The translations under genes were made by a program, and so were the position numbers. Below are positions 18,644-42,900 of a stretch of DNA of 64,000 nucleotides, in pieces (the stretch's first letter is position 1; every line of letters starts with the position of its first letter). The notes beneath the pieces were generated by a model. It was not told where the DNA came from and did not search any database. It saw nothing but the letters and a program-made list of their open reading frames with translations. The DNA is from Caenorhabditis remanei (taxonomy: Eukaryota; Nematoda; Chromadorea; Rhabditida; Rhabditidae). Location of the stretch: assembly GCF_010183535.1 (NCBI RefSeq), contig NC_071333.1:17544587-17608586 (forward strand), given 5' to 3'.

Positions 18644-21600
18644 TCAGTAGTTACGGAAGTTGAAGGCGAGCGCTGGTTCGCTATCCTTTGGAGGGTCCGA
18701 AAGTTGGCGGTAGATATCTACTCGTTGTTGGGCTGACATGGAGGTGTTGATGAACAATGGACGGTCCACAGGTACTCGGCCTGAAATATTTTAGTGTAAG
18801 ACATACAGCCTTAATAGATAAAACTCACTGTCATTTGAGAATGATCCATATGAAGTATGTCCATAGCTATTATTCGAATGCCGATTCAATGAAGAATTCT
18901 GGTCCATTTGCTGCATATTGTTACGGTAGTAATCGGTCAACATGTTGTTGTTATCAGTGACTGCTGATGCGGTGTTCTGATTGCCTGCAAATGAAAGAAA
19001 CGATTTAACTCAAGTTAAGTTAAGAGAGTGGGAGGTTTCGGAACGGAAACTTCAAGAATAAAAAAGAGACAGAGTGATAAGGAATAAGGGGTGGGGTGCG
19101 TGTTGTTGATGGTGAAGAATTAACTTAAGATAGAAATAGTAGACGATTTTGTAAGAAGGGGGGTATGTATGTTTGTCGGTTATAATTGATGAATGTCTAA
19201 ATTTAAAACTGATGATTTACGATTTACGGTAGGAAGGAGTAGTAAGAATAGAAATGAAAAAATAGAAAATAAGTTTACTGACATTAGAGAAAATCTTAAA
19301 CCTGTGAATCAACCGTCTCAATGAATCAAAAAATGTCAATAAAAGAAAATAACACACTTTCTCTCTCTCTCACATTTTCCAATCTCGAAAATATTTTTTT
19401 CAACGTCAATTTCTTTTCGAAAACAGACTTTCCCAATGTTTGAGCTCCTCATCTAACAGAAACGCGGAAGCTGACGGGCCCCATAGTGTGTTTACCATGT
19501 TCTTGTCTTTAAATTTCTCTGTTTTTCAGTGCTTTTCTCTGAAAACTGACTGAATCTGAGAGAAGGAAGAAAATCTTTCGGCTCTGTCCAGCGCGATTTG
19601 TTTTCGTGGACACGGGAAACGGAGAAGTGGCAGAAAAAAGGAAAAAAACGAGACGACGTCCGAAAAAAAGAAAGAAAAACGAACAGACAAGAAAAAAGGA
19701 GAGAAGAAAATAGAAAGGAGCAAAACCACCATCTGCTCGGCGCTGTTGCTCTCTTCTTCTCTTTTCTCTCGTGTCGTTTTCTTCTTCTTCTTGCCCATTT
19801 TTTTTCTCCCCTTCCCTTCGTTTTTTTTGCTCTTCTCGTGAGCCACTGGCCACGTCGACCGCTTCGTCAACCACGCGCTTCATGCACAAATAAGGTCCCT
19901 CATCAGCACGCTCTTTCCCGTTTTCCTTCGCGTTTTTTTTTGCGCGGTTGGGGGCTCTCAACGAACTCGCATTCAGTCCGTTTCAAAGATCTTGTGGACC
20001 GGGAAAAAGGGGAAAGGAAAATAAGGGGGAAAAAAGAGAAAGAGAAAAAAATATTCAGAGAATAACAAGCTTCTGAATAGAATCTCATTTAGTGGCTGCC
20101 TGGGAGCGGAAACGGGGACGAAGAAGGAGAAAAAAAGCTCTATGTGTGCGAAAAACAGGAATAAGAAGATCAAATCTCAGAAAAAATAGAATAAGAGTTA
20201 AGCTTGTGGAAGCGTGAATTGAGTTAAATTGAGAAAAGTTTCCGGAAATGTCATTTTTTTTCACCTGAAATGTTTCTTTTTCAAAAAATTTCTGCCTGAA
20301 GAAAAATTGTTTGTGCTTTTTTTCTTCTTACTTCCGCGTCACTTCATCAAAAGGGCAAACCAATAGGGTAAATTGGAAAATAAAGTGGGAACAAATAATT
20401 GGAAATTTTTGTTCTTGGGAACAAAAAATTCAGTTTCAAAAACCACAAAACATTTTCACACATTTTTCATGCTTATGTGAAACACAGGAACAGTATGACT
20501 CAGAAAAGAAGGAAACAAACTCATACCACTCCAACAATTTGAATGAATGTTACTAATAGCTGAACACCACTACCATTACTTACTTAAATATGCCCCCTGC
20601 CAAAACTTTTGTTTAGTTAACAAAGTATTCTAAAATTAAAACAAGTCGAACATCTATATCTAGACGCCTCTCAAAAGAGCTAACTGATAGGGCGGAGCCG
20701 CCCCGGGAGGCAGTGACCACTTAGGGGCGGGACCAGAGAGGACTGGGGGAGAAGGTGGCAAAAGGTGAAACGATCATGTGCGCGCGCGGGGACGGACGCG
20801 ATGCAGAAAGTTTGTTCTTTGATTTATATTAACAAACAGTTAAAAAAAAGTTTTCGAGAAAAAAAGAAAAAGCTGACATAGACAAAAAAGAAATGATAGA
20901 GATGAGAGGAATGTGGAAAATGATTTGGAATCGGCATGCTGGAAAAAAGAAAAAGAAAAAGAATCGAAACTCAAAAACCAATGAAAAGGAGAGAAATGAT
21001 AAGATAATGGAAAAGTGCAGGTTAAGAGGGTGACTGAAATTGGAAATAGTAGACTATCAGACTTGCAAATCAAAAAAATAAAAGAACAAATATAAAATAT
21101 TCCCTTACCAATGACAGTGGAGTATTCTGGAGCTCTGGTGGCGATCAACAGTTCAGGATTGAGAATCTGGAAGAAGCATTGTATTGTCCGCCGCTTATAT
21201 ACAATATTGTTGTTATCACATGTGGTTCATAAAGTGATGTCACACAATTTCTGATAACAGGGGGGGGGGGGGACATTATGTCTCGTTCCCATTTTGCCTA
21301 TCCGAATTAGTCATTCAATCAGGAAACCGCCAAAACATCACGTTTCCGGAGTGACCTTGCCACAGAAATGGAAAAAAGGGGAGAGAGAAGCAATCTAAAT
21401 GTGTTTTCCCCTGTTTTCCTATCCAACTATCATTCACTAATCTTATCAATTAACCTTTTTTTTATTTTCTATCTTCTCAAAAATGTCTCTTTTTAGTAGT
21501 TTCCAACTCTTCTGATCGCTGCTATTGTGTTTTCTATCTTTTTTGGTGTTTCTCTCGTTTTTTTCTGTCGGGGACATATGACTTGTCTGTATGTATGCGA

Positions 21601-22740
21601 GTGCCCCGACCCGACCTTCAGAAAACATTAACGATCGAAGAATGGCGGTATATGTGGACACTGCGCCCTCCCATGGCTTGCCATTTACCCATTTACCCCT
21701 AGATATCAAAATTGTAACAAATGGTGAAGGGTATAAGGGAAACACATTTTGAACCTTTGACACGGATTGACCAGGACGGATTACAGGGTATTTCGCAATT
21801 TGTTTGCCATTGTTTTTCGATAAGATCTCTCTCTCTCTTTTTTCTCCGTTTTCGAGAGTTTTCCGAGAAAGAACTTTCTAGAAAACACAGTAATCTAGGT
21901 CAAACAACAAGCAGTGGTCAGCTGCTTAGATTATGTTTACGAAATGAATCGTCATAAAAGATAATGAGTACAAATTACTACCTATATCTGATCAGAGATT
22001 GGATGTGGTTTGATCACCTGGATAATTAATTCTTATTACATATGTGATTTTTGAATGGTCATATGAATAAGAATAAGAATAAGAATTAGGGCTCACCGAT
22101 TTAGATGGACAGTTCGATTTGATCATTGTTACTTTAGTCATAGTTAGAAGGAAATCTTTGTAAAAACTTTGCAGCTTTGTAAAACAGAAGCAACAGAATG
22201 AATTCACCTGCCTACCCGATGTCCTCCGTTTTATCATTTTTATCATCCCGTAGCTCCCTCATATTGTTTTGTCTACCTGCCCTTGACTCACCTTTCCATT
22301 CACCGCAACTTGGAACAATGGCCAGTGGTTTTCAGCTTCCGACGGTGCCGCATCGGTGGTACGAGAGGAGGCAATGAATTGAGGGAGTACAGGAAGTATT
22401 CGATGAATATTTGATTCCTAAATGAGTTGTTTTGTTGATTTCACTTCCGATTAGATTACTTTAAATGTTTTCTGAAGAGAAACATCCAACGCGTTGCATA
22501 TCTTCTTTTCCTTCGCGGTTTGGAGTATCCTGAAAACAAGTGACTCCGTGGATTTTTCAATTTCCAGTCTTGGTTTTCAATTTCCAACCTAGTATTGCTG
22601 AATATTGTCTGAAGATTGCAAACGTTTTTTTCCAATAGATATAGGAAGATACATCGTAAGATGATTGCAGCGAACACTATGAGGATTGCTGAGAATATGA
22701 TTATCCATATCAGCTGGAGCATATGTTCATTGTATATCAT
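18644..22740 (-). CDS. Gene A: unrecognised single-pass membrane protein, complete copy
   Basis: Six exons (22589-22740, 22460-22529, 22292-22417, 21109-21166, 18829-18984, 18644-18780) join in phase to give 232 residues. The ATG directly follows CTTTTCAG, a likely trans-splice site. Residues about 8-34 form one strongly hydrophobic helix (LQLIWIIIFSAILIVFAAII...) near the N-terminus, with no cleavable signal peptide. The remaining ~195 residues are soluble, ending in an Asn/Ser/Gln-rich stretch and the tail LAFNFRNY. Short exons and minimal introns (60 bp and 42 bp between the first exons) support a real gene. I do not recognise the family. This is the only copy with the last two exons: the 2.1-kb intron before them (18985-21108) contains the left breakpoint (19463) of the tandem duplication. 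Additional upstream exons cannot be excluded. Confidence 0.75.
20688..20803. other. GC-rich block inside the duplicated unit
   Basis: A GC-rich island in an AT-rich intron with GGGCGGAGCCGCCCC (an imperfect hairpin), a GC-box-like GGGGCGGGAC and GCGCGCGC. It recurs around 29315 and 37940 in the other units. It could be a cryptic promoter or a structured RNA; no ORF is supported. Confidence 0.3.
21270..21282 (+). repeat. Poly-G tract, 13 G in copy 1
   Basis: A run of 13 G in the intron or upstream side of gene A exon 4. The same tract has 11 G in copy 2 (about 29887-29897) and 10 G in copy 3 (38511-38520). These are among the few differences between the units. Confidence 0.85.
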
Positions 22741-25700
22741 CTGAAAAGAAGAGATTCTAATTTTTTTCATTCTCTTAGGTGTCATCAGGTGTTAATGAAC
22801 CCCCAGACAACAGCTGTTCAACGGAGTGGGGGCATTGGGGGCACGGGAAATCGTTTTTCTGTTTTCACCGATGATTTCTGTCTCAATAGAAACAAAACGT
22901 GAGAGTGACAAAGTGATCGGGGGAGTAACAGCTGTTAGAGGATTCTTGATTTTGATCTACAACGAAATGGCAAAGACAAAACCAAAAACAAGAAAGAATT
23001 TCGAAAATTTGCGGAAAAGCTGAAGAGAGACGGGAGAAAGGGTATGAGATGAAACTGGGAAATTATAAAGTTGGAAAATTTTGGACAGCAGTAACCATAG
23101 AGATTTCATAAATTTCATAAATTTCATGTTGAAGGCTGACATTTCTGAAAGCAAAATTTTTTCGAGAATTTTTTCCATTTCTAAGCCGTTTCTGAACTTG
23201 TGAACTCAAAATATGCAAAACAAGAGAAGAGGGAAAACAGAAATTCTAACCTACATTCTACAATTAAGACTAAATGAAATATAGTAAGAACAAAGTGCGG
23301 CACACAAAAGGGGAGCACGCGGCACACAATTTCTTCCTTCCGCACTCCCTCAAAATTATTTGATAGAAATGTTTGTATGTCATTTTTCTTCAGTGTACAT
23401 AACCCCAGAGCTTCCGCGCGGAAAGGCAAAAATCGAGACACGAAAGTTTCGCCAAAAAATTTTTTTGCACCCCCCGCGCTATAAGCACTCAACTAGATAT
23501 AAGAGTAATGTGTTGATTTTATATCAACAATTAACTGTGTCTAATGATTGGGAAGAAATTAAAGAAAATCATCTGAAAAAAGTTGTTTAGAAATATACAA
23601 ATGAAGTTGTCGAAACGTTTGGTCATAACTGCTTTTCAGTTTTTTTCAGTCGATTTTTTAAGAGAAAAACTAGAACCCATAATTTACGGCTCACGTTTGA
23701 ACCTAATTCAGACTGACACTTGTTCAATTTTGCCCGACTTCTTTTTCTCTTGTTTTTTCCCGATTCCCATGTAATGTACATGATTTTGAGTTCATTTTTG
23801 TTCTCCGATTACAAATTACAATTACAAATTACCGATTACCGATTACCGCGATTCAAATTCGGGTAATGTGTCTTCTCCGACCTTTTTATTCGAGGCTTTG
23901 GCGTGTGGCAAGTCACTTGATGCGCAAACCAATTTCGATTCCGTTTTTACTCTGTTTTTGGGAATAAATGTTGTTTTGGAAGACTGGCATGATGTGTTCA
24001 AGGTTGGGAAAAACGGAATAACAAACAAAAAACGGTCGTACCGATTTTTTTTTGAATTTGGACTGATTTGTGGTGGTGGATGTAGGAGAAGAATTAGCGG
24101 TGTTCAAAGATTGAATTTAGAAAGAAGATATGGAAATGTTGGGTTGGAGTGCAGAAAGTTCAAAGGGAAACACAAAACATGGAAAAATAAAAATAAAAAG
24201 GTTTGTATGACAACACAAAGAAGTTTCGTTCCCCAAAAACATATTGTATGCTTTCGAAATGTTTATATCCAAAATCATGTGGTTTGGAAAGTTTTGAAAA
24301 TTGTAAAACTTGGAAATTGCACCCTTCAGTGTTGTTGCTTGGTAACAAGTGCAAGTTTTTGAATATTTTTTGTCTGCAATATAAATAACAGCGTTTTTTA
24401 AACACAAATTCAGGTTTAAAATTACAGCTGACACAATTTTTTTCTTGTTTGTCTTCTGATTTTTTCAGCTTTCTGAAAAAGACTGTTGCTCTATTTTCCG
24501 TATTCAACGAGACATTTTTTCAATAGTTGGCAATACTCTAGTACTTTGTTTGCTTGTTTTGCTTCACCAAAACTTTCCTGAGGTACTTGAATCTCGAAAA
24601 CCCTTAATAGCGTTACCGAACATTGGCTCCCACGCAAATAGATGAGTAACTTTCATATTTTTGTCTTGGCCTGCAAAGTACACATTTCATGAAATTTGGT
24701 TCACATGATCTGTTTATTCTGTCCAGGGTTTTTTGTTCGAAAAAGTTAAATTTGGAGCATGGAAGTCTGCAGTCGGAATTGTGTTAATGTGAGTCTGTGT
24801 GCAATTTCGAGCATGCAGAAGAACACGTTAACCTAAGCGCCTGGCGGTTGGCACCCGAGCGTACACAGTGTCTGTAAACAGTATGAACAAATATTTGTAG
24901 TTCGTTATCGGCATTTTTTCGAAGGGAGTTGGCGAAAAAACGCGAGAGAAACGGGGAAAATGCAGACAGGAACGATGTTTCACTAACTTTTCGCGAACGA
25001 AAACTCGGAAACTTTCAGAAATAAACGGATAGAGAGTTCAAGTGCCTACACTTGAAAATTGTTGATATTTATGAGTAAGTCGCATTGAGTATACAACATT
25101 GGAAAATATCTGGCCGTAAATAAATGTGAAGTGGAGATCAGTAACATTGAAAAATTTAGAACGTTTGATTGGGATGTTCAATTATAAATCGTGGAGGGTG
25201 AATTATGGAACAGTTTATGAAAAACCTTAAGTGAAACTGCATGGGACTACTATATTAGTTTCCTAAGCGTTAAAACTGAGAGATACATGAAACAATCATA
25301 TATTCCAAAACGAAATTTGAATAATTTACAGTCTCAATCTCAAGTGTGCAAATCAGCAGAATATGAGGAATTTTTTGCCCCATTTTGCTCATAGGATTTT
25401 ATATCGATCTGTACTAAAAAATTTATATCGATTCAATAACACAAGAGATTTTTTGAATAAATATTAACAACCCAGAAGCCATTCTGATACTAACAAAAAA
25501 TGCGGAGCACCTTTTTGATGTTGTCATCTTCCAACAGAATTGTCATTTGGCTTAAAAGTTTTGCACTGACAAACGGGGCGTGATAGTTTGGTGACGAAAA
25601 AAAAACTTTCTAATAATACCATAAAGTAGTTTTTTCTATTTCTTGAGGATGTACCAGTCATTAAAATAAAAATATGCGATTTCTCAAACTTTCACTATTT

Positions 25701-26365
25701 TCGAAAATTGTACAAAGAACTTGTGAAGCATGATTTGCTAACCAGAACGTTTATTAAATATAACCAAAATTCTGCAAATTATAGTCGAATACCCGAAATA
25801 TGAGATTTTTTGTCCGATACTGCATATTCTGTTCAGAGAAACAAAGAAAAACAAGGTTTTATTATTACAACCGTGCAAATCACATTCAAAAGAAAAACAG
25901 GAGGAAATTCAAGTGAAGTTAGCCTAAAAACGAAAGGAAAAGAACATATAAAAGTATCAGAATGCAAAAAAAATGAATGTTATATTACCCAAATGGAAAT
26001 TGTTGAAAGCAGCTCAAAACATAAACTGACAACAAAGCGGAAGAAGATAAATCAGTAAAATGCCCGATAGAAATGAAAATGTTAGAGAAATTAAATCAGG
26101 GTGCAGCATTCCATTGAATCAAGTTCCGTGTTAGTTGTCGAATTATGCTTCGTTTTCAGTGAGTCTGAAAATAAACCAAATATTAGAATGGGAATAGAAT
26201 CAGTGGTTTTCCCTGCAACTTATTATATTTTACTGTACGTTTATTTACAGACCACCATGACAACCCAGAATTGAAGGATATGAGAAGGGGGTTAAAAATG
26301 GACGTATGGATTCAAATAAATAACAGGCAAAATTGGATAATACGGTTTTAGAAGGGGGCCTTTCA
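22741..26365. other. Upstream region of gene A (copy 1); no gene seen
   Basis: About 3.6 kb between the gene A start and the transporter stop, repeated as 31366-34989 and 39989-43612. ORFs in it are short, have no consistent splice structure and recur only because the unit is repeated. A short ATTACCG/ATTACAA repeat lies at about 23808-23850. It probably carries the gene A promoter, which all three units therefore keep. Confidence 0.55.
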
Positions 26366-28089
26366 CTATTCGAGACATGTAGTGAGACAGTTCAGCCACC
26401 TTCTTCGTTCTGGCGGCACATCGGCCATTTCTTCTCCGTTCGGTGCTTGTGGAAGATGAGTGAAATCGGCTGGCTCATCAGTAGCGTAGTAACAGAAGAT
26501 AATGTTTCCAACTGAAACATTTATAGTTTTTTTCATACCTGACTATAATCACTCACCAATGAGAAGAACTCCGTGGGTCAGGAAAACAATTCTCCATTCT
26601 TCGAGAGTGTTGTGCGTACAGATCAGGAAGACCAAAAGTGGTTCGATGAAGAGAGAAAGGCACTTGATGAATTGAATTTGGGAAAGGACGAAGTGAGAGT
26701 GTTGTCTGAAAAAAAATTTAAAAATTATAGTCCATCCCGATATAACTATGGTAATTACCTGGCTACAAGGGTGGCGCATTTGTAGAAACCTCCGCAGATG
26801 AATCCAGTGGAGCATTCGATGACCAAGAGAGCAATCAAGGAGAGATGAGCTTGATCCTTTGGAAGATAACCGAGAATACAGAAAAACGCACCGGAAACCA
26901 TCAAAGCGATCGTGTTGAAAATTCTCATTTTAGTCTTCTCAGACCAGAAGTGAATACGGTCACTGGCAACTCCGGAAATGATTTTAAAGGCCAAGTGAAG
27001 AGCACGTGGCACGGCAACAAAGTACCCGGTGTGGTTAACAGCGAATCCCAGAACTTCCTTCAAGAATGTTGGTCCGTACATAACAATGAATTGAGACATC
27101 ATCAATTCTCCGAAGGCAGAGAGCCAAACTGCCAACATGACGGAGTTAGTAAGGATCTTGGCGATTGGAGCTTTTTCGTGTGCTTGGACATCTCCTTTTC
27201 CTCTGTGAATCTTCTCAAGCTCGATTTCAGTCATCTTTGGATGTTTAGTTGGGTTGTTTCTAAAATTCAACAAATATTGATTGAAATATTTGTGTAAGCT
27301 TATAAACTAACCTGTAGAACCACCACCACAAACTGAAGAGAACACCACTGAGCACAGCGTGCACGTAGTAGACGGATTCCCATCCCCAGGACGATTCACA
27401 AAGCTCTCCGGCGACTGGCATAGTAAACATCACCGAGATTTGAGAAAATGAAGAGAGAAGTGAGATGAAGAGTCCGTGTTGCTTCAAACTGGCCCAGTTG
27501 ACAACGATCAATCCGATAGCGGCGAAATCTGCTCCGAAACTTACTCCCTGGAAACAAATTTTGAATTGGTGGTAGCAGTTTTAATGATTTTATTTTTTAC
27601 CTGGAAGAATCTAGCAATGACCAAAAAGTTGAAATGGAGGTGAGCAGCTAGTGGCATCAAAGCAGTGGATAAAGTTGACACAGCTCCAGCGAAAAAGAAA
27701 ACGGACCTTGCTCCGAATTGTTGGTAGAACCTTTAAAATTAAACATTTTCATCTAGAATTCTCTTTAAATGTTTGAACTTACCAATGGAAAGGCCAAGCT
27801 GCTGCGAGAGTTCCTACTGCTGCTGCCCACATAATGATAGACTTCTGCTTGTTATCGTAAGCTAAGTTCACCACTGAAGCATCAGTCATGGGTAATTCAG
27901 AAGTGTTGGTCTTAGGAGCCATGCAAATCATTGTAAAGTTGATGACAGTCATATTGGAAGCGATTGAAGCGATGCATAGCGTTCCTGGAATATATAATTC
28001 ATTTTTAGTAATCACAGTCAGCCACGAAACCACCTACCAATTGCAAGAACAATGTACCGTTGACGGTTTTCCAAGCATGGGACGACTGA
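26366..28089 (-). pseudogene. SLC17-type transporter copy 1, lacks start codon
   Basis: Exons 2-7 (from 27984 down to the stop at 26366) are identical in translation to the intact copy at 43613-45354. Exon 1 survives only as 28038-28089: the junction at 28089/28090 removes the first six codons, the ATG and all upstream DNA. Read in the transporter frame, the joined sequence reaches a stop without an ATG. The copy therefore cannot make the normal protein. It lies downstream of gene A copy 2 in the same orientation, and exon 2 can be joined in frame to gene A exon 4 (29736-29793). Confidence 0.85.
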
Positions 28090-28104
28090 CGCGGAAAGCT
28101 GACG
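28083..28104. other. Tandem duplication junction 1
   Basis: Transporter exon 1 sequence (CGACTGA, ending 28089) is joined directly to the gene A intron sequence CGCGGAAAGCTG. The original left edge at 19463 reads CGCGGAAGCTG, one A shorter. The parental sequences share at most one base at the join, which suggests end joining rather than recombination between repeats. Confidence 0.9.
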
Positions 28105-29735
28105 GGCCCCATAGTGTGTTTACCATGTTCTTGTCTTTAAATTTCTCTGTTTTTCAGTGCTTTTCTCTGAAAACTGACTGAATCTGAGAGAAGGAAGAAA
28201 ATCTTTCGGCTCTGTCCAGCGCGATTTGTTTTCGTGGACACGGGAAACGGAGAAGTGGCAGAAAAAAGGAAAAAAACGAGACGACGTCCGAAAAAAAGAA
28301 AGAAAAACGAACAGACAAGAAAAAAGGAGAGAAGAAAATAGAAAGGAGCAAAACCACCATCTGCTCGGCGCTGTTGCTCTCTTCTTCTCTTTTCTCTCGT
28401 GTCGTTTTCTTCTTCTTCTTGCCCATTTTTTTTCTCCCCTTCCCTTCGTTTTTTTTGCTCTTCTCGTGAGCCACTGGCCACGTCGACCGCTTCGTCAACC
28501 ACGCGCTTCATGCACAAATAAGGTCCCTCATCAGCACGCTCTTTCCCGTTTTCCTTCGCGTTTTTTTTGCGCGGTTGGGGGCTCTCAACGAACTCGCATT
28601 CAGTCCGTTTCAAAGATCTTGTGGACCGGGAAAAAGGGGAAAGGAAAATAAGGGGGAAAAAAGAGAAAGAGAAAAAAATATTCAGAGAATAACAAGCTTC
28701 TGAATAGAATCTCATTTAGTGGCTGCCTGGGAGCGGAAACGGGGACGAAGAAGGAGAAAAAAAGCTCTATGTGTGCGAAAAACAGGAATAAGAAGATCAA
28801 ATCTCAGAAAAAATAGAATAAGAGTTAAGCTTGTGGAAGCGTGAATTGAGTTAAATTGAGAAAAGTTTCCGGAAATGTCATTTTTTTTCACCTGAAATGT
28901 TTCTTTTTCAAAAAATTTCTGCCTGAAGAAAAATTGTTTGTGCTTTTTTTCTTCTTACTTCCGCGTCACTTCATCAAAAGGGCAAACCAATAGGGTAAAT
29001 TGGAAAATAAAGTGGGAACAAATAATTGGAAATTTTTGTTCTTGGGAACAAAAAATTCAGTTTCAAAAACCACAAAACATTTTCACACATTTTTCATGCT
29101 TATGTGAAACACAGGAACAGTATGACTCAGAAAAGAAGGAAACAAACTCATACCACTCCAACAATTTGAATGAATGTTACTAATAGCTGAACACCACTAC
29201 CATTACTTACTTAAATATGCCCCCTGCCAAAACTTTTGTTTAGTTAACAAAGTATTCTAAAATTAAAACAAGTCGAACATCTATATCTAGACGCCTCTCA
29301 AAAGAGCTAACTGATAGGGCGGAGCCGCCCCGGGAGGCAGTGACCACTTAGGGGCGGGACCAGAGAGGACTGGGGGAGAAGGTGGCAAAAGGTGAAACGA
29401 TCATGTGCGCGCGCGGGGACGGACGCGATGCAGAAAGTTTGTTCTTTGATTTATATTAACAAACAGTTAAAAAAAAGTTTTCGAGAAAAAAAGAAAAAGC
29501 TGACATAGACAAAAAAGAAATGATAGAGATGAGAGGAATGTGGAAAATGATTTGGAATCGGCATGCTGGAAAAAAGAAAAAGAAAAAGAATCGAAACTCA
29601 AAAACCAATGAAAAGGAGAGAAATGATAAGATAATGGAAAAGTGCAGGTTAAGAGGGTGACTGAAATTGGAAATAGTAGACTATCAGACTTGCAAATCAA
29701 AAAAATAAAAGAACAAATATAAAATATTCCCTTAC

Positions 29736-31365
29736 CAATGACAGTGGAGTATTCTGGAGCTCTGGTGGCGATCAACAGTTCAGGATTGAGAATCTGGAAG
29801 AAGCATTGTATTGTCCGCCGCTTATATACAATATTGTTGTTATCACATGTGGTTCATAAAGTGATGTCACACAATTTCTGATAACAGGGGGGGGGGGACA
29901 TTATGTCTCGTTCCCATTTTGCCTATCCGAATTAGTCATTCAATCAGGAAACCGCCAAAACATCACGTTTCCGGAGTGACCTTGCCACAGAAATGGAAAA
30001 AAGGGGAGAGAGAAGCAATCTAAATGTGTTTTCCCCTGTTTTCCTATCCAACTATCATTCACTAATCTTATCAATTAACCTTTTTTTTATTTTCTATCTT
30101 CTCAAAAATGTCTCTTTTTAGTAGTTTCCAACTCTTCTGATCGCTGCTATTGTGTTTTCTATCTTTTTTGGTGTTTCTCTCGTTTTTTTCTGTCGGGGAC
30201 ATATGACTTGTCTGTATGTATGCGAGTGCCCCGACCCGACCTTCAGAAAACATTAACGATCGAAGAATGGCGGTATATGTGGACACTGCGCCCTCCCATG
30301 GCTTGCCATTTACCCATTTACCCCTAGATATCAAAATTGTAACAAATGGTGAAGGGTATAAGGGAAACACATTTTGAACCTTTGACACGGATTGACCAGG
30401 ACGGATTACAGGGTATTTCGCAATTTGTTTGCCATTGTTTTTCGATAAGATCTCTCTCTCTTTTTTTTCTCCGTTTTCGAGAGTTTTCCGAGAAAGAACT
30501 TTCTAGAAAACACAGTAATCTAGGTCAAACAACAAGCAGTGGTCAGCTGCTTAGATTATGTTTACGAAATGAATCGTCATAAAAGATAATGAGTACAAAT
30601 TACTACCTATATCTGATCAGAGATTGGATGTGGTTTGATCACCTGGATAATTAATTCTTATTACATATGTGATTTTTGAATGGTCATATGAATAAGAATA
30701 AGAATAAGAATTAGGGCTCACCGATTTAGATGGACAGTTCGATTTGATCATTGTTACTTTAGTCATAGTTAGAAGGAAATCTTTGTAAAAACTTTGCAGC
30801 TTTGTAAAACAGAAGCAACAGAATGAATTCACCTGCCTACCCGATGTCCTCCGTTTTATCATTTTTATCATCCCGTAGCTCCCTCATATTGTTTTGTCTA
30901 CCTGCCCTTGACTCACCTTTCCATTCACCGCAACTTGGAACAATGGCCAGTGGTTTTCAGCTTCCGACGGTGCCGCATCGGTGGTACGAGAGGAGGCAAT
31001 GAATTGAGGGAGTACAGGAAGTATTCGATGAATATTTGATTCCTAAATGAGTTGTTTTGTTGATTTCACTTCCGATTAGATTACTTTAAATGTTTTCTGA
31101 AGAGAAACATCCAACGCGTTGCATATCTTCTTTTCCTTCGCGGTTTGGAGTATCCTGAAAACAAGTGACTCCGTGGATTTTTCAATTTCCAGTCTTGGTT
31201 TTCAATTTCCAACCTAGTATTGCTGAATATTGTCTGAAGATTGCAAACGTTTTTTTCCAATAGATATAGGAAGATACATCGTAAGATGATTGCAGCGAAC
31301 ACTATGAGGATTGCTGAGAATATGATTATCCATATCAGCTGGAGCATATGTTCATTGTATATCAT
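29736..31365 (-). CDS. Gene A copy 2, 3'-truncated; predicted 5' half of a fusion gene
   Basis: Exons 1-4 are present (31214-31365, 31085-31154, 30917-31042, 29736-29793) with translation identical to the complete gene, encoding 135 residues plus the first base of a glycine codon. The last two exons are outside the duplicated unit and absent. Exon 4 keeps a good donor (ATTG|GTAAGG). The next compatible acceptor downstream on the same strand is transporter exon 2 (ends at 27984), which also needs phase 1. Splicing over the 1.75-kb intron, which spans junction 1, would yield a 589-residue chimera. Without such splicing the copy is a truncated pseudogene. Confidence 0.6.
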
Positions 31366-34300
31366 CTGAAAAGAAGAGATTCTAATTTTTTTCATTCTCT
31401 TAGGTGTCATCAGGTGTTAATGAACCCCCAGACAACAGCTGTTCAACGGAGTGGGGGCATTGGGGGCACGGGAAATCGTTTTTCTGTTTTCACCGATGAT
31501 TTCTGTCTCAATAGAAACAAAACGTGAGAGTGACAAAGTGATCGGGGGAGTAACAGCTGTTAGAGGATTCTTGATTTTGATCTACAACGAAATGGCAAAG
31601 ACAAAACCAAAAACAAGAAAGAATTTCGAAAATTTGCGGAAAAGCTGAAGAGAGACGGGAGAAAGGGTATGAGATGAAACTGGGAAATTATAAAGTTGGA
31701 AAATTTTGGACAGCAGTAACCATAGAGATTTCATAAATTTCATAAATTTCATGTTGAAGGCTGACATTTCTGAAAGCAAAATTTTTTCGAGAATTTTTTC
31801 CATTTCTAAGCCGTTTCTGAACTTGTGAACTCAAAATATGCAAAACAAGAGAAGAGGGAAAACAGAAATTCTAACCTACATTCTACAATTAAGACTAAAT
31901 GAAATATAGTAAGAACAAAGTGCGGCACACAAAAGGGGAGCACGCGGCACACAATTTCTTCCTTCCGCACTCCCTCAAAATTATTTGATAGAAATGTTTG
32001 TATGTCATTTTTCTTCAGTGTACATAACCCCAGAGCTTCCGCGCGGAAAGGCAAAAATCGAGACACGAAAGTTTCGCCAAAAAATTTTTTTGCACCCCCC
32101 GCGCTATAAGCACTCAACTAGATATAAGAGTAATGTGTTGATTTTATATCAACAATTAACTGTGTCTAATGATTGGGAAGAAATTAAAGAAAATCATCTG
32201 AAAAAAGTTGTTTAGAAATATACAAATGAAGTTGTCGAAACGTTTGGTCATAACTGCTTTTCAGTTTTTTTCAGTCGATTTTTTAAGAGAAAAACTAGAA
32301 CCCATAATTTACGGCTCACGTTTGAACCTAATTCAGACTGACACTTGTTCAATTTTGCCCGACTTCTTTTTCTCTTGTTTTTTCCCGATTCCCATGTAAT
32401 GTACATGATTTTGAGTTCATTTTTGTTCTCCGATTACAAATTACAATTACAAATTACCGATTACCGATTACCGCGATTCAAATTCGGGTAATGTGTCTTC
32501 TCCGACCTTTTTATTCGAGGCTTTGGCGTGTGGCAAGTCACTTGATGCGCAAACCAATTTCGATTCCGTTTTTACTCTGTTTTTGGGAATAAATGTTGTT
32601 TTGGAAGACTGGCATGATGTGTTCAAGGTTGGGAAAAACGGAATAACAAACAAAAAACGGTCGTACCGATTTTTTTTGAATTTGGACTGATTTGTGGTGG
32701 TGGATGTAGGAGAAGAATTAGCGGTGTTCAAAGATTGAATTTAGAAAGAAGATATGGAAATGTTGGGTTGGAGTGCAGAAAGTTCAAAGGGAAACACAAA
32801 ACATGGAAAAATAAAAATAAAAAGGTTTGTATGACAACACAAAGAAGTTTCGTTCCCCAAAAACATATTGTATGCTTTCGAAATGTTTATATCCAAAATC
32901 ATGTGGTTTGGAAAGTTTTGAAAATTGTAAAACTTGGAAATTGCACCCTTCAGTGTTGTTGCTTGGTAACAAGTGCAAGTTTTTGAATATTTTTTGTCTG
33001 CAATATAAATAACAGCGTTTTTTAAACACAAATTCAGGTTTAAAATTACAGCTGACACAATTTTTTTCTTGTTTGTCTTCTGATTTTTTCAGCTTTCTGA
33101 AAAAGACTGTTGCTCTATTTTCCGTATTCAACGAGACATTTTTTCAATAGTTGGCAATACTCTAGTACTTTGTTTGCTTGTTTTGCTTCACCAAAACTTT
33201 CCTGAGGTACTTGAATCTCGAAAACCCTTAATAGCGTTACCGAACATTGGCTCCCACGCAAATAGATGAGTAACTTTCATATTTTTGTCTTGGCCTGCAA
33301 AGTACACATTTCATGAAATTTGGTTCACATGATCTGTTTATTCTGTCCAGGGTTTTTTGTTCGAAAAAGTTAAATTTGGAGCATGGAAGTCTGCAGTCGG
33401 AATTGTGTTAATGTGAGTCTGTGTGCAATTTCGAGCATGCAGAAGAACACGTTAACCTAAGCGCCTGGCGGTTGGCACCCGAGCGTACACAGTGTCTGTA
33501 AACAGTATGAACAAATATTTGTAGTTCGTTATCGGCATTTTTTCGAAGGGAGTTGGCGAAAAAACGCGAGAGAAACGGGGAAAATGCAGACAGGAACGAT
33601 GTTTCACTAACTTTTCGCGAACGAAAACTCGGAAACTTTCAGAAATAAACGGATAGAGAGTTCAAGTGCCTACACTTGAAAATTGTTGATATTTATGAGT
33701 AAGTCGCATTGAGTATACAACATTGGAAAATATCTGGCCGTAAATAAATGTGAAGTGGAGATCAGTAACATTGAAAAATTTAGAACGTTTGATTGGGATG
33801 TTCAATTATAAATCGTGGAGGGTGAATTATGGAACAGTTTATGAAAAACCTTAAGTGAAACTGCATGGGACTACTATATTAGTTTCCTAAGCGTTAAAAC
33901 TGAGAGATACATGAAACAATCATATATTCCAAAACGAAATTTGAATAATTTACAGTCTCAATCTCAAGTGTGCAAATCAGCAGAATATGAGGAATTTTTT
34001 GCCCCATTTTGCTCATAGGATTTTATATCGATCTGTACTAAAAAATTTATATCGATTCAATAACACAAGAGATTTTTTGAATAAATATTAACAACCCAGA
34101 AGCCATTCTGATACTAACAAAAAATGCGGAGCACCTTTTTGATGTTGTCATCTTCCAACAGAATTGTCATTTGGCTTAAAAGTTTTGCACTGACAAACGG
34201 GGCGTGATAGTTTGGTGACGAAAAAAAAACTTTCTAATAATACCATAAAGTAGTTTTTTCTATTTCTTGAGGATGTACCAGTCATTAAAATAAAAATATG

Positions 34301-34989
34301 CGATTTCTCAAACTTTCACTATTTTCGAAAATTGTACAAAGAACTTGTGAAGCATGATTTGCTAACCAGAACGTTTATTAAATATAACCAAAATTCTGCA
34401 AATTATAGTCGAATACCCGAAATATGAGATTTTTTGTCCGATACTGCATATTCTGTTCAGAGAAACAAAGAAAAACAAGGTTTTATTATTACAACCGTGC
34501 AAATCACATTCAAAAGAAAAACAGGAGGAAATTCAAGTGAAGTTAGCCTAAAAACGAAAGGAAAAGAACATATAAAAGTATCAGAATGCAAAAAAAATGA
34601 ATGTTATATTACCCAAATGGAAATTGTTGAAAGCAGCTCAAAACATAAACTGACAACAAAGCGGAAGAAGATAAATCAGTAAAATGCCCGATAGAAATGA
34701 AAATGTTAGAGAAATTAAATCAGGGTGCAGCATTCCATTGAATCAAGTTCCGTGTTAGTTGTCGAATTATGCTTCGTTTTCAGTGAGTCTGAAAATAAAC
34801 CAAATATTAGAATGGGAATAGAATCAGTGGTTTTCCCTGCAACTTATTATATTTTACTGTACGTTTATTTACAGACCACCATGACAACCCAGAATTGAAG
34901 GATATGAGAAGGGGGTTAAAAATGGACGTATGGATTCAAATAAATAACAGGCAAAATTGGATAATACGGTTTTAGAAGGGGGCCTTTCA

Positions 34990-36713
34990 CTATTCGAGAC
35001 ATGTAGTGAGACAGTTCAGCCACCTTCTTCGTTCTGGCGGCACATCGGCCATTTCTTCTCCGTTCGGTGCTTGTGGAAGATGAGTGAAATCGGCTGGCTC
35101 ATCAGTAGCGTAGTAACAGAAGATAATGTTTCCAACTGAAACATTTATAGTTTTTTTCATACCTGACTATAATCACTCACCAATGAGAAGAACTCCGTGG
35201 GTCAGGAAAACAATTCTCCATTCTTCGAGAGTGTTGTGCGTACAGATCAGGAAGACCAAAAGTGGTTCGATGAAGAGAGAAAGGCACTTGATGAATTGAA
35301 TTTGGGAAAGGACGAAGTGAGAGTGTTGTCTGAAAAAAAATTTAAAAATTATAGTCCATCCCGATATAACTATGGTAATTACCTGGCTACAAGGGTGGCG
35401 CATTTGTAGAAACCTCCGCAGATGAATCCAGTGGAGCATTCGATGACCAAGAGAGCAATCAAGGAGAGATGAGCTTGATCCTTTGGAAGATAACCGAGAA
35501 TACAGAAAAACGCACCGGAAACCATCAAAGCGATCGTGTTGAAAATTCTCATTTTAGTCTTCTCAGACCAGAAGTGAATACGGTCACTGGCAACTCCGGA
35601 AATGATTTTAAAGGCCAAGTGAAGAGCACGTGGCACGGCAACAAAGTACCCGGTGTGGTTAACAGCGAATCCCAGAACTTCCTTCAAGAATGTTGGTCCG
35701 TACATAACAATGAATTGAGACATCATCAATTCTCCGAAGGCAGAGAGCCAAACTGCCAACATGACGGAGTTAGTAAGGATCTTGGCGATTGGAGCTTTTT
35801 CGTGTGCTTGGACATCTCCTTTTCCTCTGTGAATCTTCTCAAGCTCGATTTCAGTCATCTTTGGATGTTTAGTTGGGTTGTTTCTAAAATTCAACAAATA
35901 TTGATTGAAATATTTGTGTAAGCTTATAAACTAACCTGTAGAACCACCACCACAAACTGAAGAGAACACCACTGAGCACAGCGTGCACGTAGTAGACGGA
36001 TTCCCATCCCCAGGACGATTCACAAAGCTCTCCGGCGACTGGCATAGTAAACATCACCGAGATTTGAGAAAATGAAGAGAGAAGTGAGATGAAGAGTCCG
36101 TGTTGCTTCAAACTGGCCCAGTTGACAACGATCAATCCGATAGCGGCGAAATCTGCTCCGAAACTTACTCCCTGGAAACAAATTTTGAATTGGTGGTAGC
36201 AGTTTTAATGATTTTATTTTTTACCTGGAAGAATCTAGCAATGACCAAAAAGTTGAAATGGAGGTGAGCAGCTAGTGGCATCAAAGCAGTGGATAAAGTT
36301 GACACAGCTCCAGCGAAAAAGAAAACGGACCTTGCTCCGAATTGTTGGTAGAACCTTTAAAATTAAACATTTTCATCTAGAATTCTCTTTAAATGTTTGA
36401 ACTTACCAATGGAAAGGCCAAGCTGCTGCGAGAGTTCCTACTGCTGCTGCCCACATAATGATAGACTTCTGCTTGTTATCGTAAGCTAAGTTCACCACTG
36501 AAGCATCAGTCATGGGTAATTCAGAAGTGTTGGTCTTAGGAGCCATGCAAATCATTGTAAAGTTGATGACAGTCATATTGGAAGCGATTGAAGCGATGCA
36601 TAGCGTTCCTGGAATATATAATTCATTTTTAGTAATCACAGTCAGCCACGAAACCACCTACCAATTGCAAGAACAATGTACCGTTGACGGTTTTCCAAGC
36701 ATGGGACGACTGA
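34990..36713 (-). pseudogene. SLC17-type transporter copy 2, lacks start codon
   Basis: Same structure as the copy at 26366-28089: exons 2-7 are intact (exon 2 is 36407-36608; stop at 34990), exon 1 is a remnant (36662-36713), and the ATG is lost at junction 2. It lies downstream of gene A copy 3 and can be entered in frame from gene A exon 4 (38360-38417). Confidence 0.85.
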
Positions 36714-36728
36714 CGCGGAAAGCTGACG
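36707..36728. other. Tandem duplication junction 2
   Basis: Identical to junction 1, including the extra A absent from the left edge of copy 1. Two independent breaks would not give the same join, so the third unit arose from the second by unequal exchange or a similar process. Confidence 0.9.
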
Positions 36729-38359
36729 GGCCCCATAGTGTGTTTACCATGTTCTTGTCTTTAAATTTCTCTGTTTTTCAGTGCTTTTCTCTGAAAACTG
36801 ACTGAATCTGAGAGAAGGAAGAAAATCTTTCGGCTCTGTCCAGCGCGATTTGTTTTCGTGGACACGGGAAACGGAGAAGTGGCAGAAAAAAGGAAAAAAA
36901 CGAGACGACGTCCGAAAAAAAGAAAGAAAAACGAACAGACAAGAAAAAAGGAGAGAAGAAAATAGAAAGGAGCAAAACCACCATCTGCTCGGCGCTGTTG
37001 CTCTCTTCTTCTCTTTTCTCTCGTGTCGTTTTCTTGTTCTTCTTGCCCATTTTTTTTCTCCCCTTCCCTTCGTTTTTTTTGCTCTTCTCGTGAGCCACTG
37101 GCCACGTCGACCGCTTCGTCAACCACGCGCTTCATGCACAAATAAGGTCCCTCATCAGCACGCTCTTTCCCGTTTTCCTTCGCGTTTTTTTTGCGCGGTT
37201 GGGGGCTCTCAACGAACTCGCATTCAGTCCGTTTCAAAGATCTTGTGGACCGGGAAAAAGGGGAAAGGAAAATAAGGGGGAAAAAAGAGAAAGAGAAAAA
37301 AATATTCAGAGAATAACAAGCTTCTGAATAGAATCTCATTTAGTGGCTGCCTGGGAGCGGAAACGGGGACGAAGAAGGAGAAAAAAAGCTCTATGTGTGC
37401 GAAAAACAGGAATAAGAAGATCAAATCTCAGAAAAAATAGAATAAGAGTTAAGCTTGTGGAAGCGTGAATTGAGTTAAATTGAGAAAAGTTTCCGGAAAT
37501 GTCATTTTTTTTCACCTGAAATGTTTCTTTTTCAAAAAATTTCTGCCTGAAGAAAAATTGTTTGTGCTTTTTTTCTTCTTACTTCCGCGTCACTTCATCA
37601 AAAGGGCAAACCAATAGGGTAAATTGGAAAATAAAGTGGGAACAAATAATTGGAAATTTTTGTTCTTGGGAACAAAAAATTCAGTTTCAAAAACCACAAA
37701 ACATTTTCACACATTTTTCATGCTTATGTGAAACACAGGAACAGTATGACTCAGAAAAGAAGGAAACAAACTCATACCACTCCAACAATTTGAATGAATG
37801 TTACTAATAGCTGAACACCACTACCATTACTTACTTAAATATGCCCCCTGCCAAAACTTTTGTTTAGTTAACAAAGTATTCTAAAATTAAAACAAGTCGA
37901 ACATCTATATCTAGACGCCTCTCAAAAGAGCTAACTGATAGGGCGGAGCCGCCCCGGGAGGCAGTGACCACTTAGGGGCGGGACCAGAGAGGACTGGGGG
38001 AGAAGGTGGCAAAAGGTGAAACGATCATGTGCGCGCGCGGGGACGGACGCGATGCAGAAAGTTTGTTCTTTGATTTATATTAACAAACAGTTAAAAAAAA
38101 GTTTTCGAGAAAAAAAGAAAAAGCTGACATAGACAAAAAAGAAATGATAGAGATGAGAGGAATGTGGAAAATGATTTGGAATCGGCATGCTGGAAAAAAG
38201 AAAAAGAAAAAGAATCGAAACTCAAAAACCAATGAAAAGGAGAGAAATGATAAGATAATGGAAAAGTGCAGGTTAAGAGGGTGACTGAAATTGGAAATAG
38301 TAGACTATCAGACTTGCAAATCAAAAAAATAAAAGAACAAATATAAAATATTCCCTTAC

Positions 38360-39988
38360 CAATGACAGTGGAGTATTCTGGAGCTCTGGTGGCGATCAAC
38401 AGTTCAGGATTGAGAATCTGGAAGAAGCATTGTATTGTCCGCCGCTTATATACAATATTGTTGTTATCACATGTGGTTCATAAAGTGATGTCACACAATT
38501 TCTGATAACAGGGGGGGGGGACATTATGTCTCGTTCCCATTTTGCCTATCCGAATTAGTCATTCAATCAGGAAACCGCCAAAACATCACGTTTCCGGAGT
38601 GACCTTGCCACAGAAATGGAAAAAAGGGGAGAGAGAAGCAATCTAAATGTGTTTTCCCCTGTTTTCCTATCCAACTATCATTCACTAATCTTATCAATTA
38701 ACCTTTTTTTTATTTTCTATCTTCTCAAAAATGTCTCTTTTTAGTAGTTTCCAACTCTTCTGATCGCTGCTATTGTGTTTTCTATCTTTTTTGGTGTTTC
38801 TCTCGTTTTTTTCTGTCGGGGACATATGACTTGTCTGTATGTATGCGAGTGCCCCGACCCGACCTTCAGAAAACATTAACGATCGAAGAATGGCGGTATA
38901 TGTGGACACTGCGCCCTCCCATGGCTTGCCATTTACCCATTTACCCCTAGATATCAAAATTGTAACAAATGGTGAAGGGTATAAGGGAAACACATTTTGA
39001 ACCTTTGACACGGATTGACCAGGACGGATTACAGGGTATTTCGCAATTTGTTTGCCATTGTTTTTCGATAAGATCTCTCTCTCTTTTTTTTCTCCGTTTT
39101 CGAGAGTTTTCCGAGAAAGAACTTTCTAGAAAACACAGTAATCTAGGTCAAACAACAAGCAGTGGTCAGCTGCTTAGATTATGTTTACGAAATGAATCGT
39201 CATAAAAGATAATGAGTACAAATTACTACCTATATCTGATCAGAGATTGGATGTGGTTTGATCACCTGGATAATTAATTCTTATTACATATGTGATTTTT
39301 GAATGGTCATATGAATAAGAATAAGAATAAGAATTAGGGCTCACCGATTTAGATGGACAGTTCGATTTGATCATTGTTACTTTAGTCATAGTTAGAAGGA
39401 AATCTTTGTAAAAACTTTGCAGCTTTGTAAAACAGAAGCAACAGAATGAATTCACCTGCCTACCCGATGTCCTCCGTTTTATCATTTTTATCATCCCGTA
39501 GCTCCCTCATATTGTTTTGTCTACCTGCCCTTGACTCACCTTTCCATTCACCGCAACTTGGAACAATGGCCAGTGGTTTTCAGCTTCCGACGGTGCCGCA
39601 TCGGTGGTACGAGAGGAGGCAATGAATTGAGGGAGTACAGGAAGTATTCGATGAATATTTGATTCCTAAATGAGTTGTTTTGTTGATTTCACTTCCGATT
39701 AGATTACTTTAAATGTTTTCTGAAGAGAAACATCCAACGCGTTGCATATCTTCTTTTCCTTCGCGGTTTGGAGTATCCTGAAAACAAGTGACTCCGTGGA
39801 TTTTTCAATTTCCAGTCTTGGTTTTCAATTTCCAACCTAGTATTGCTGAATATTGTCTGAAGATTGCAAACGTTTTTTTCCAATAGATATAGGAAGATAC
39901 ATCGTAAGATGATTGCAGCGAACACTATGAGGATTGCTGAGAATATGATTATCCATATCAGCTGGAGCATATGTTCATTGTATATCAT
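38360..39988 (-). CDS. Gene A copy 3, 3'-truncated; predicted 5' half of a fusion gene
   Basis: Exons 1-4 (39837-39988, 39708-39777, 39540-39665, 38360-38417) match the complete gene in translation. Exons 5-6 are absent because the unit starts in intron 4. The remaining donor is phase 1 and lies upstream, on the same strand, of transporter copy 2 exon 2 (36407-36608), so an in-frame fusion is possible exactly as for copy 2. The promoter region upstream (39989-43612) is intact. Confidence 0.6.
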
Positions 39989-42900
39989 CTGAAAAGAAGA
40001 GATTCTAATTTTTTTCATTCTCTTAGGTGTCATCAGGTGTTAATGAACCCCCAGACAACAGCTGTTCAACGGAGTGGGGGCATTGGGGGCACGGGAAATC
40101 GTTTTTCTGTTTTCACCGATGATTTCTGTCTCAATAGAAACAAAACGTGAGAGTGACAAAGTGATCGGGGGAGTAACAGCTGTTAGAGGATTCTTGATTT
40201 TGATCTACAACGAAATGGCAAAGACAAAACCAAAAACAAGAAAGAATTTCGAAAATTTGCGGAAAAGCTGAAGAGAGACGGGAGAAAGGGTATGAGATGA
40301 AACTGGGAAATTATAAAGTTGGAAAATTTTGGACAGCAGTAACCATAGAGATTTCATAAATTTCATAAATTTCATGTTGAAGGCTGACATTTCTGAAAGC
40401 AAAATTTTTTCGAGAATTTTTTCCATTTCTAAGCCGTTTCTGAACTTGTGAACTCAAAATATGCAAAACAAGAGAAGAGGGAAAACAGAAATTCTAACCT
40501 ACATTCTACAATTAAGACTAAATGAAATATAGTAAGAACAAAGTGCGGCACACAAAAGGGGAGCACGCGGCACACAATTTCTTCCTTCCGCACTCCCTCA
40601 AAATTATTTGATAGAAATGTTTGTATGTCATTTTTCTTCAGTGTACATAACCCCAGAGCTTCCGCGCGGAAAGGCAAAAATCGAGACACGAAAGTTTCGC
40701 CAAAAAATTTTTTTGCACCCCCCGCGCTATAAGCACTCAACTAGATATAAGAGTAATGTGTTGATTTTATATCAACAATTAACTGTGTCTAATGATTGGG
40801 AAGAAATTAAAGAAAATCATCTGAAAAAAGTTGTTTAGAAATATACAAATGAAGTTGTCGAAACGTTTGGTCATAACTGCTTTTCAGTTTTTTTCAGTCG
40901 ATTTTTTAAGAGAAAAACTAGAACCCATAATTTACGGCTCACGTTTGAACCTAATTCAGACTGACACTTGTTCAATTTTGCCCGACTTCTTTTTCTCTTG
41001 TTTTTTCCCGATTCCCATGTAATGTACATGATTTTGAGTTCATTTTTGTTCTCCGATTACAAATTACAATTACAAATTACCGATTACCGATTACCGCGAT
41101 TCAAATTCGGGTAATGTGTCTTCTCCGACCTTTTTATTCGAGGCTTTGGCGTGTGGCAAGTCACTTGATGCGCAAACCAATTTCGATTCCGTTTTTACTC
41201 TGTTTTTGGGAATAAATGTTGTTTTGGAAGACTGGCATGATGTGTTCAAGGTTGGGAAAAACGGAATAACAAACAAAAAACGGTCGTACCGATTTTTTTT
41301 GAATTTGGACTGATTTGTGGTGGTGGATGTAGGAGAAGAATTAGCGGTGTTCAAAGATTGAATTTAGAAAGAAGATATGGAAATGTTGGGTTGGAGTGCA
41401 GAAAGTTCAAAGGGAAACACAAAACATGGAAAAATAAAAATAAAAAGGTTTGTATGACAACACAAAGAAGTTTCGTTCCCCAAAAACATATTGTATGCTT
41501 TCGAAATGTTTATATCCAAAATCATGTGGTTTGGAAAGTTTTGAAAATTGTAAAACTTGGAAATTGCACCCTTCAGTGTTGTTGCTTGGTAACAAGTGCA
41601 AGTTTTTGAATATTTTTTGTCTGCAATATAAATAACAGCGTTTTTTAAACACAAATTCAGGTTTAAAATTACAGCTGACACAATTTTTTTCTTGTTTGTC
41701 TTCTGATTTTTTCAGCTTTCTGAAAAAGACTGTTGCTCTATTTTCCGTATTCAACGAGACATTTTTTCAATAGTTGGCAATACTCTAGTACTTTGTTTGC
41801 TTGTTTTGCTTCACCAAAACTTTCCTGAGGTACTTGAATCTCGAAAACCCTTAATAGCGTTACCGAACATTGGCTCCCACGCAAATAGATGAGTAACTTT
41901 CATATTTTTGTCTTGGCCTGCAAAGTACACATTTCATGAAATTTGGTTCACATGATCTGTTTATTCTGTCCAGGGTTTTTTGTTCGAAAAAGTTAAATTT
42001 GGAGCATGGAAGTCTGCAGTCGGAATTGTGTTAATGTGAGTCTGTGTGCAATTTCGAGCATGCAGAAGAACACGTTAACCTAAGCGCCTGGCGGTTGGCA
42101 CCCGAGCGTACACAGTGTCTGTAAACAGTATGAACAAATATTTGTAGTTCGTTATCGGCATTTTTTCGAAGGGAGTTGGCGAAAAAACGCGAGAGAAACG
42201 GGGAAAATGCAGACAGGAACGATGTTTCACTAACTTTTCGCGAACGAAAACTCGGAAACTTTCAGAAATAAACGGATAGAGAGTTCAAGTGCCTACACTT
42301 GAAAATTGTTGATATTTATGAGTAAGTCGCATTGAGTATACAACATTGGAAAATATCTGGCCGTAAATAAATGTGAAGTGGAGATCAGTAACATTGAAAA
42401 ATTTAGAACGTTTGATTGGGATGTTCAATTATAAATCGTGGAGGGTGAATTATGGAACAGTTTATGAAAAACCTTAAGTGAAACTGCATGGGACTACTAT
42501 ATTAGTTTCCTAAGCGTTAAAACTGAGAGATACATGAAACAATCATATATTCCAAAACGAAATTTGAATAATTTACAGTCTCAATCTCAAGTGTGCAAAT
42601 CAGCAGAATATGAGGAATTTTTTGCCCCATTTTGCTCATAGGATTTTATATCGATCTGTACTAAAAAATTTATATCGATTCAATAACACAAGAGATTTTT
42701 TGAATAAATATTAACAACCCAGAAGCCATTCTGATACTAACAAAAAATGCGGAGCACCTTTTTGATGTTGTCATCTTCCAACAGAATTGTCATTTGGCTT
42801 AAAAGTTTTGCACTGACAAACGGGGCGTGATAGTTTGGTGACGAAAAAAAAACTTTCTAATAATACCATAAAGTAGTTTTTTCTATTTCTTGAGGATGTA

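Follow-up and report, generated by a model that had tools for sequence, protein, structure and literature searches.

A young threefold tandem array on the Caenorhabditis remanei X chromosome carries two identical, predicted in-frame chimeras of a membrane gene and an SLC17-like transporter

Here we describe two identical chimeric loci in a 64-kb window of the Caenorhabditis remanei PX506 genome (chromosome X, positions 17544587-17608586; coordinates below count from the first base of this window), in which the 5' part of a small membrane gene, called gene A here and orthologous to Caenorhabditis elegans Y15E3A.5, stands in front of the body of an SLC17-like transporter gene. An 8.62-kb unit is present three times, head to tail, in a 25.9-kb array (19462-45336) that keeps one intact copy of each parental gene at its ends and holds the two chimeras inside. 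We propose that a single recent tandem duplication, followed by the gain of an extra copy of the unit, had its breakpoints in gene A intron 4 and transporter exon 1 and so brought the two genes together; RNA polymerase from the copied gene A promoter would then run into the transporter body, and splicing of gene A exon 4 to transporter exon 2 would give an in-frame protein of 585 residues. Taken as a whole, from the duplication through promoter read-through and in-frame fusion to a young, near-neutral by-product, we give this explanation an even chance of being correct.

Structure and age of the tandem array

Self-comparison of the window revealed that 19462-36713 and 28089-45336 are 99.95% identical. 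Copy 1 (19462-28088; 8627 bases; 99.91-99.95% identity by self-BLAST, with copy alignment) carries exons 1-4 of native gene A and, at its right end, a transporter body without a start; copy 2 (28089-36712; 8624 bases) likewise has a transporter body without a start but holds only exons 1-4 of gene A, exons 5-6 being absent; and in copy 3 (36713-45336; 8624 bases), gene A exons 1-4, again lacking exons 5-6, accompany the native transporter body, the start codon of which is in the right flank. Both genes are read from the minus strand. Native gene A (18644-22740; 232 amino acids in its long form) has exons 1-4 in copy 1 (22740-21109) and exons 5-6 (18984-18829 and 18780-18644) to the left of the array, so that gene A is complete in copy 1 only. 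The native transporter (43390-45354; 473 amino acids; exon 1 at 45354-45285, exons 2-8 at 45231-43390) has its ATG (45354) and first six codons to the right of the array and is thus complete in copy 3 only. An initial annotation of this DNA had spoken of new-gene birth by duplication with the parental genes kept; the duplication junction and both intact parents bear this out, although "birth" overstates what a DNA structure by itself can tell.

Junction 1 (28088/28089) joins transporter exon 1 to gene A intron 4, and edge comparison left a single ambiguous base (A), so that any microhomology is at most 1 base. Junction 2 (36712/36713) has the same 40-mer, which occurs twice in the window, whereas each native edge occurs once. 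Six positions from the breakpoint, both junctions (28089-28097 and 36713-36721) contain one base more than the native left edge (19462-19470), either a repair scar or a sequencing difference; since both junctions have it in common, it is as expected for a single founding duplication that was later expanded. Apart from this extra base, alignment of the three copies revealed only two substitutions (at 37036 in copy 3 and at 21837 in copy 1) and several homopolymer-length changes. No difference fell within the gene A exons, and transporter exons 2-8 are identical, letter for letter, in all three copies. In the assembled sequence, the duplication and its breakpoints are certain, and we infer that the array is also present in the worm. 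When one stretch of the transporter and one of gene A were searched against the organism's own genome (186 contigs; 130,466,896 bases), each query matched three places, all inside the array, and neither a further array copy nor an alternative-haplotype contig was found.

To date the array, we used the C. elegans rate of 0.57 substitutions per generation given in a passage of PMC8078821, or about 2.9e-9 per site if a haploid genome of 100 Mb is assumed. With two substitutions and three copies of equal age, the array would be about 27,000 generations old (95% range 3,300-98,000), an estimate that gene conversion or uncorrected errors would shift. The copies differ by at most 0.00023, compared with a within-species diversity of about 0.015 as reported in part of PMC10461856, indicating that they are not two diverged haplotypes strung together and that the array is much younger than typical alleles; it may be private to the strain. 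According to Table 1 of the same source, the locus, being right of 16.07 Mb, belongs to the right arm of the X chromosome, and a passage of PMC10015627 puts the share of PX506 nucleotides that are duplicated relative to its ancestor at 14%.

Chimeric loci and their predicted product

At each junction, gene A intron 4 runs into transporter exon 1 in such a way that the start codon of that transporter copy is gone. Fusion locus 1 spans 31365-26143 on the minus strand. Its 5' part consists of gene A exons 1-4 of copy 2 (31365-31214, 31154-31085, 31042-30917 and 29793-29736; 135 codons plus one base) and its 3' part of transporter exons 2-8 of copy 1 (27984-27783, 27730-27601, 27547-27312, 27259-26759, 26705-26557, 26511-26400 and 26164-26143). 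Between them lies a chimeric intron of 1751 nt (27985-29735), made up of gene A intron 4 up to 28089, a remnant of transporter exon 1 (28038-28088) and transporter intron 1; the remnant is without a start codon or a natural acceptor and keeps a strong donor. Fusion locus 2 (34767-39988, minus strand) combines gene A exons 1-4 of copy 3 (39988-38360) with transporter exons 2-8 of copy 2 (36608-34767), and the proteins predicted from both loci are identical.

Gene A exon 4 ends ...ACT GTC ATT G, native transporter exon 1 ends ...GCA ATT G, and transporter exon 2 begins GA ACG at 27984. Thus, the exon 4 donor and the exon 2 acceptor are both of phase 1, and nothing interrupts the joined frame before its terminal stop: given the proposed splice, both loci encode 585 codons with one terminal stop, and the junction peptide reads APEYSTVIGTLCIAS. 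The phase match and the in-frame splice from 29736 to 27984 had been put forward in the initial annotation, and we re-derived both from the sequence with the exon ends as given there. Position 27984, which had been called the end of exon 2, is its 5' start on the minus strand; the fusion described at junction 1 is present there, but its identical counterpart (39988-34767) had gone unmentioned; and the length of 589 residues, which we could reproduce with the 3' end chosen at the time, becomes 585 with an exon 8 that matches the orthologues (26164-26143). Among the 12 introns modelled here, the phase frequencies are such that any two would agree by chance in about 35% of cases, so the match is unremarkable taken singly and the reading frame is weak evidence. 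The 3.4 kb between the gene A start and the stop of the next transporter was copied whole, with one homopolymer-length difference in copy 1, in line with the earlier statement that the fusion keeps the gene A promoter. Judged by the definition of Katju (as worded in part of PMC3449122), the loci are chimeric gene duplicates: both halves trace to native gene A and the native transporter, the relatives are unfused (P0056 for gene A; P0001-P0005 for the transporter), which assigns the ancestral and derived states, and the open reading frame (ORF) is intact across the join at both loci if the proposed splice is used.

The gene A half of the fusion is 79% identical to C. nigoni P0056 over residues 1-134, and the long form is 83% identical to this protein over 100% of its length. 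Exons 1-4 are part of this longer form, which is full length in C. nigoni, whereas the annotated products of C. elegans (Y15E3A.5), C. japonica and C. remanei (CRE_15346) have 83 residues and start in exon 5. This suggests a start site in intron 4, possibly near the junction. A search with a made-up, joined 120-residue query found four relatives, among them C. elegans P0060 and C. remanei P0059 (93% and 99% identical, respectively, over the C-terminal 69% of the query), which through its C-terminal 83-residue region places gene A in the Y15E3A.5 family. This strongly conserved region (18644-18984; 93% to C. elegans) is missing from the chimera, which holds only the N-terminal 135 residues of the long form. 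Another homologue, P0057, has an uninterrupted frame of 224 amino acids, and its longest contig, at 1,211 bases, could not accommodate introns such as those of the window; it is probably a spliced cDNA of the long form. Pfam gave no match for gene A at E 0.001, and a literature search on Y15E3A.5 found no paper that names the gene. Relatives of both parental genes probably lie on one chromosome in C. nigoni (P0002 and P0056) and in C. elegans (P0005 and P0060) too, given that the longest contigs recorded for the two genes agree in length within each species (28,075,405 bases in C. nigoni and 17,718,942 bases in C. elegans). A further possibility, that gene A has another first coding exon in an ORF opening with the ATG at 28126, and that this ORF, if one base shorter, would read in frame into the transporter, was dropped: the three 83-residue relatives match only from MLTDYY on and the fourth (P0058) has a different N-terminus, which leaves the ORF unsupported as coding, and the extra base by which the junction copies differ from the native left edge would also break this frame.

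The native transporter matches Pfam MFS_1, and among proteins of solved structure, sialin, VGLUT2 and VGLUT3 (8 distinct sequences) are closest to it in sequence. A structure model of the C. elegans orthologue (mean predicted local distance difference test score 83) had sialin, VGLUT2 and DgoT as its top nine PDB matches, so that its major facilitator fold is closest to SLC17 structures. The best NCBIfam family for this orthologue (P0005) is TIGR00894, at 176.9 bits compared with a curated cut-off of 626.45 bits. The C-termini of the five best homologues, P0001-P0005, end in or near PERRRLTENEA, with P0005 the most divergent (ERERLTEHKA). These ends match exon 8 at 26164-26143 with a donor at 26400, giving 473 amino acids for the transporter and 585 for the fusion, whereas the C-terminus chosen in the initial annotation (...RRRWLNCLTTCLE) runs past this possible donor. 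This donor scores 4.8 once it is excluded from the training set, which is not high, and the read-through end could be a second form.

An arginine at the cytosolic start of helix 1 (Arg17, window numbering) is present in 27 of 27 aligned homologues, although these rows were picked by hand from 55 matches after a motif tally and are not an unbiased sample; the pattern R-x-R-Y occurs in 32 of the 55, in P0024 at another place, and the remaining 23 include many N-truncated or bacterial sequences. Arg17 likely corresponds to DgoT Arg29 and so to sialin Arg39, an equivalence drawn through an insect sialin row (P0047) and an 18-residue spacing to a second arginine, and not through direct alignment to human sialin; DgoT R29 and R47 have the same spacing in a passage of PMC6532931. 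At the position of the helix 1 substrate arginine (DgoT R47), all 25 non-insect rows, of which 23 carry nematode names, have M, T, I, L or S, and only the 2 insect rows have R. SLC17A3 and A4 likewise are without this arginine (PMC6532931, in part). An asparagine stands one residue before this position in all 25 non-insect rows. The substrate of this SLC17-like clade may be unlike that of sialin or the VGLUTs.

Helix 1 covers residues 17-46 in the C. elegans orthologue model (16-45 in window numbering), and the fusion keeps it from Gly24 on, with the join about 8 residues inside the helix. Over the best 19-residue stretch, hydropathy drops from 1.94 to 1.64, a value at which a helix could still insert. 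The expectation in the initial annotation that helix 1 could still form thus holds for insertion, but it did not consider that the join lies within the helix and takes away the arginine shared by all 27 aligned rows. The single helix of gene A has a charge of -1 before it and +4 after it, a pattern from which its C-terminus is probably cytosolic. The N-terminus of SLC17 transporters is cytosolic, and the two would fit. The fusion would therefore probably be a 13-helix membrane protein, insertable if made, and expected to be poorly active because helix 1 has lost its conserved initial arginine; that it would be a working transporter is doubtful.

Splicing of the chimeric intron and alternative explanations

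Splice sites were scored with matrices built from the 12 introns modelled here. The exon 2 acceptor (10.5) outscored every one of the 95 AG sites examined within the chimeric intron, the best of which reached 9.8, and ranked third of the 12 modelled acceptors in a leave-one-out comparison; the exon 4 donor scored 8.7, or 6.2 when left out of training. Since the exon 1 remnant is without a good acceptor, gene A exon 4 is most likely joined to transporter exon 2, and we infer that a transcript is made in which this acceptor is used; on these sequence grounds, a fusion mRNA is plausible. The two best competing acceptors, at 28922 (9.8) and 28166 (9.5), are also present in native intron 4, where native gene A must skip both to make its 232-residue form. 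The acceptor at 28166 would define a candidate 43-nt exon (28124-28166, minus strand; donor 5.3), which is possibly the first exon of the 83-residue short form and whose inclusion would also break the frame of native gene A. This exon-like stretch lies beside the junction, where gene A intron 4 is rich in T, and occurs again at 19496-19538. The initial annotation had named a frame-breaking cryptic exon in the 1.75-kb intron as what would undo the fusion; the sequence does offer such a candidate, and its use is putative.

Several points weigh against a translated in-frame fusion. The matrices separate sites poorly, as 6 of the 95 intron sites score at least 7.3, above 8 of the 12 modelled acceptors. 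Inclusion of the 43-nt exon would break the fusion frame, with a stop after 38 codons in the chimera. The join removes the conserved Arg17 and puts a proline in its position; in sialin, R39 lies at the cytoplasmic end of helix 1, and R39C leads to Salla disease with transport reduced but not abolished (according to a passage of PMC6532931), while part of PMC11116495 describes a trafficking defect and a salt bridge of R39 to Glu262. The promoter of the gene A long form may be weak, given that the annotated products start in exon 5. Finally, none of the 55 protein-database matches spans both halves of the fusion, in a search that scored only the 7,994 candidates sharing most words with the query; the best match was 85% identical, so that no C. 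remanei transporter is apparently among the 55 and the missing fused protein says little.

The same observations raise other explanations, of which the one we take most seriously, although we consider it unlikely, is that the transporter body captured a promoter without making an in-frame fusion. Transcripts beginning at the upstream gene A promoter, or at an internal one that may lie right next to the junction and drive the 83-residue form, would here be spliced through the 43-nt exon or trans-spliced to exon 2, giving early stops or an N-truncated protein of 439 residues from Met35. A start site in intron 4 is plausible given that the short form starts in exon 5 in C. elegans, C. japonica and C. 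remanei; the sequence TTTTCAG/AGAAAAGC...AACATG/GTAAAC has an acceptor and a donor of 9.5 and 5.3, respectively; and both tested leaders (one spliced at 28124, the other running unspliced as far as the donor at 28038) start with short frames, 12-53 residues long, ahead of Met35. The internal promoter is hypothetical, however, and the 43-nt exon joined to native exon 5 would create an upstream frame whose stop, read by eye, overlaps the short-form start, which would be unusual. It is distinctly improbable, in our view, that the chimeric loci are silent or that their messages decay, so that the array would be a copy-number variant, neutral or slightly deleterious, that is in the process of being lost. 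Most young duplicates are lost, and the fusion protein has a conserved residue missing; moreover, D. yakuba chimeras are found at lower frequency than whole-gene duplicates and are read as mostly detrimental in part of PMC5460883. On the other side, the 3.4-kb gene A upstream region was copied whole and the two loci share one and the same open fusion frame, although the open frame weighs little because the array is too young for decay to show.

We think it very unlikely that the array is an assembly artefact, with a unit that occurs once or twice in the worm repeated by the assembler. The copies are nearly identical, a 25.9-kb array may exceed many reads, and the copy number is that of the assembly. 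The novel junction, however, unites two intragenic positions separated by 8.6 kb, a sequence that reads should have supplied; six bases from the breakpoint, both junctions depart by the same single base from the native left edge; the copies have private differences (two substitutions and several homopolymers, possibly sequencing errors); and C. remanei haplotypes differ far more than the copies do (PMC10461856, in part). Just as improbable, in our estimate, is that selection is at work, such that two copies of a new 13-helix protein under gene A control, originating at most about 100,000 generations ago, were kept or doubled for expression in gene A tissues or membranes. Retention of the whole of helix 1 is the most remote of these options: exon 4 would join a cryptic acceptor before 28085 in the remnant, in frame, giving 601 residues with the RQRY motif retained. 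The remnant donor (9.8) could help to define such an exon, but its acceptor, at -3.2 compared with 10.5 for exon 2, lies below all 12 modelled acceptors. Under the explanation that we prefer, splicing of exon 4 to exon 2 after promoter read-through, the locus most likely represents a by-product of the duplication that is young, near-neutral and possibly segregating.

Elsewhere in the window, Rfam gave zero matches at gathering thresholds across the 64 kb, and one of ten ORFs submitted to Pfam matched, the unit ORFs 32618-32983 (plus strand) and 30074-30502 (minus strand) being without a match. The left window edge holds a gene of the Frag1/DRAM/Sfk1 family (2168-2806) and direct repeats that are 73-79% identical (2-313/2578-2892 and 474-669/4193-4370), which suggests an older tandem duplication there.

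Relation to known chimeric duplicates and transporters

Chimeric genes arising by tandem duplication are an already documented class, of which this locus is a very young and well-formed case; no title among the literature matches listed names it. In D. yakuba, a chimera of the 5' part of GE18453 and the 3' part of GE18451, as described in part of PMC5460883, has the same geometry, with a duplication that ignores gene borders and parental sequence that stays, and 24 of 76 tandem-duplication chimeras were upregulated there. Our case differs in being from a nematode, in having the unit three times and thus two identical chimeras, and in being known from DNA sequence. In C. elegans, chimeric structures are common among young duplicates, and the chimeric and partial duplicates of Katju and Lynch (PMC3449122, in part) likewise are young paralogues with coding sequence from two genic sources; here, a single breakpoint across two neighboring genes explains the structure and the parents are adjacent. 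A passage of the same source states that chimeric duplicates were not detected in C. elegans mutation-accumulation lines. Compared with SLC17 transporters such as sialin, VGLUT2 and bacterial DgoT, the native transporter shares the fold and the arginine of the RY motif at the start of helix 1, whereas the aligned non-insect rows are without the helix 1 substrate arginine and the chimera loses the RY arginine as well.

What is unusual about this locus is its completeness: intact adjacent parents, two identical daughters, exact breakpoints, an open frame and extreme youth. The predicted defect is precise, the loss of the arginine equivalent to sialin R39, and the age is too low for much secondary change, making the locus a clean, datable example of a gene fusion. 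If the chimeras are transcribed, they would allow the effect of a chimeric gene to be measured at its birth, in a species of high diversity.

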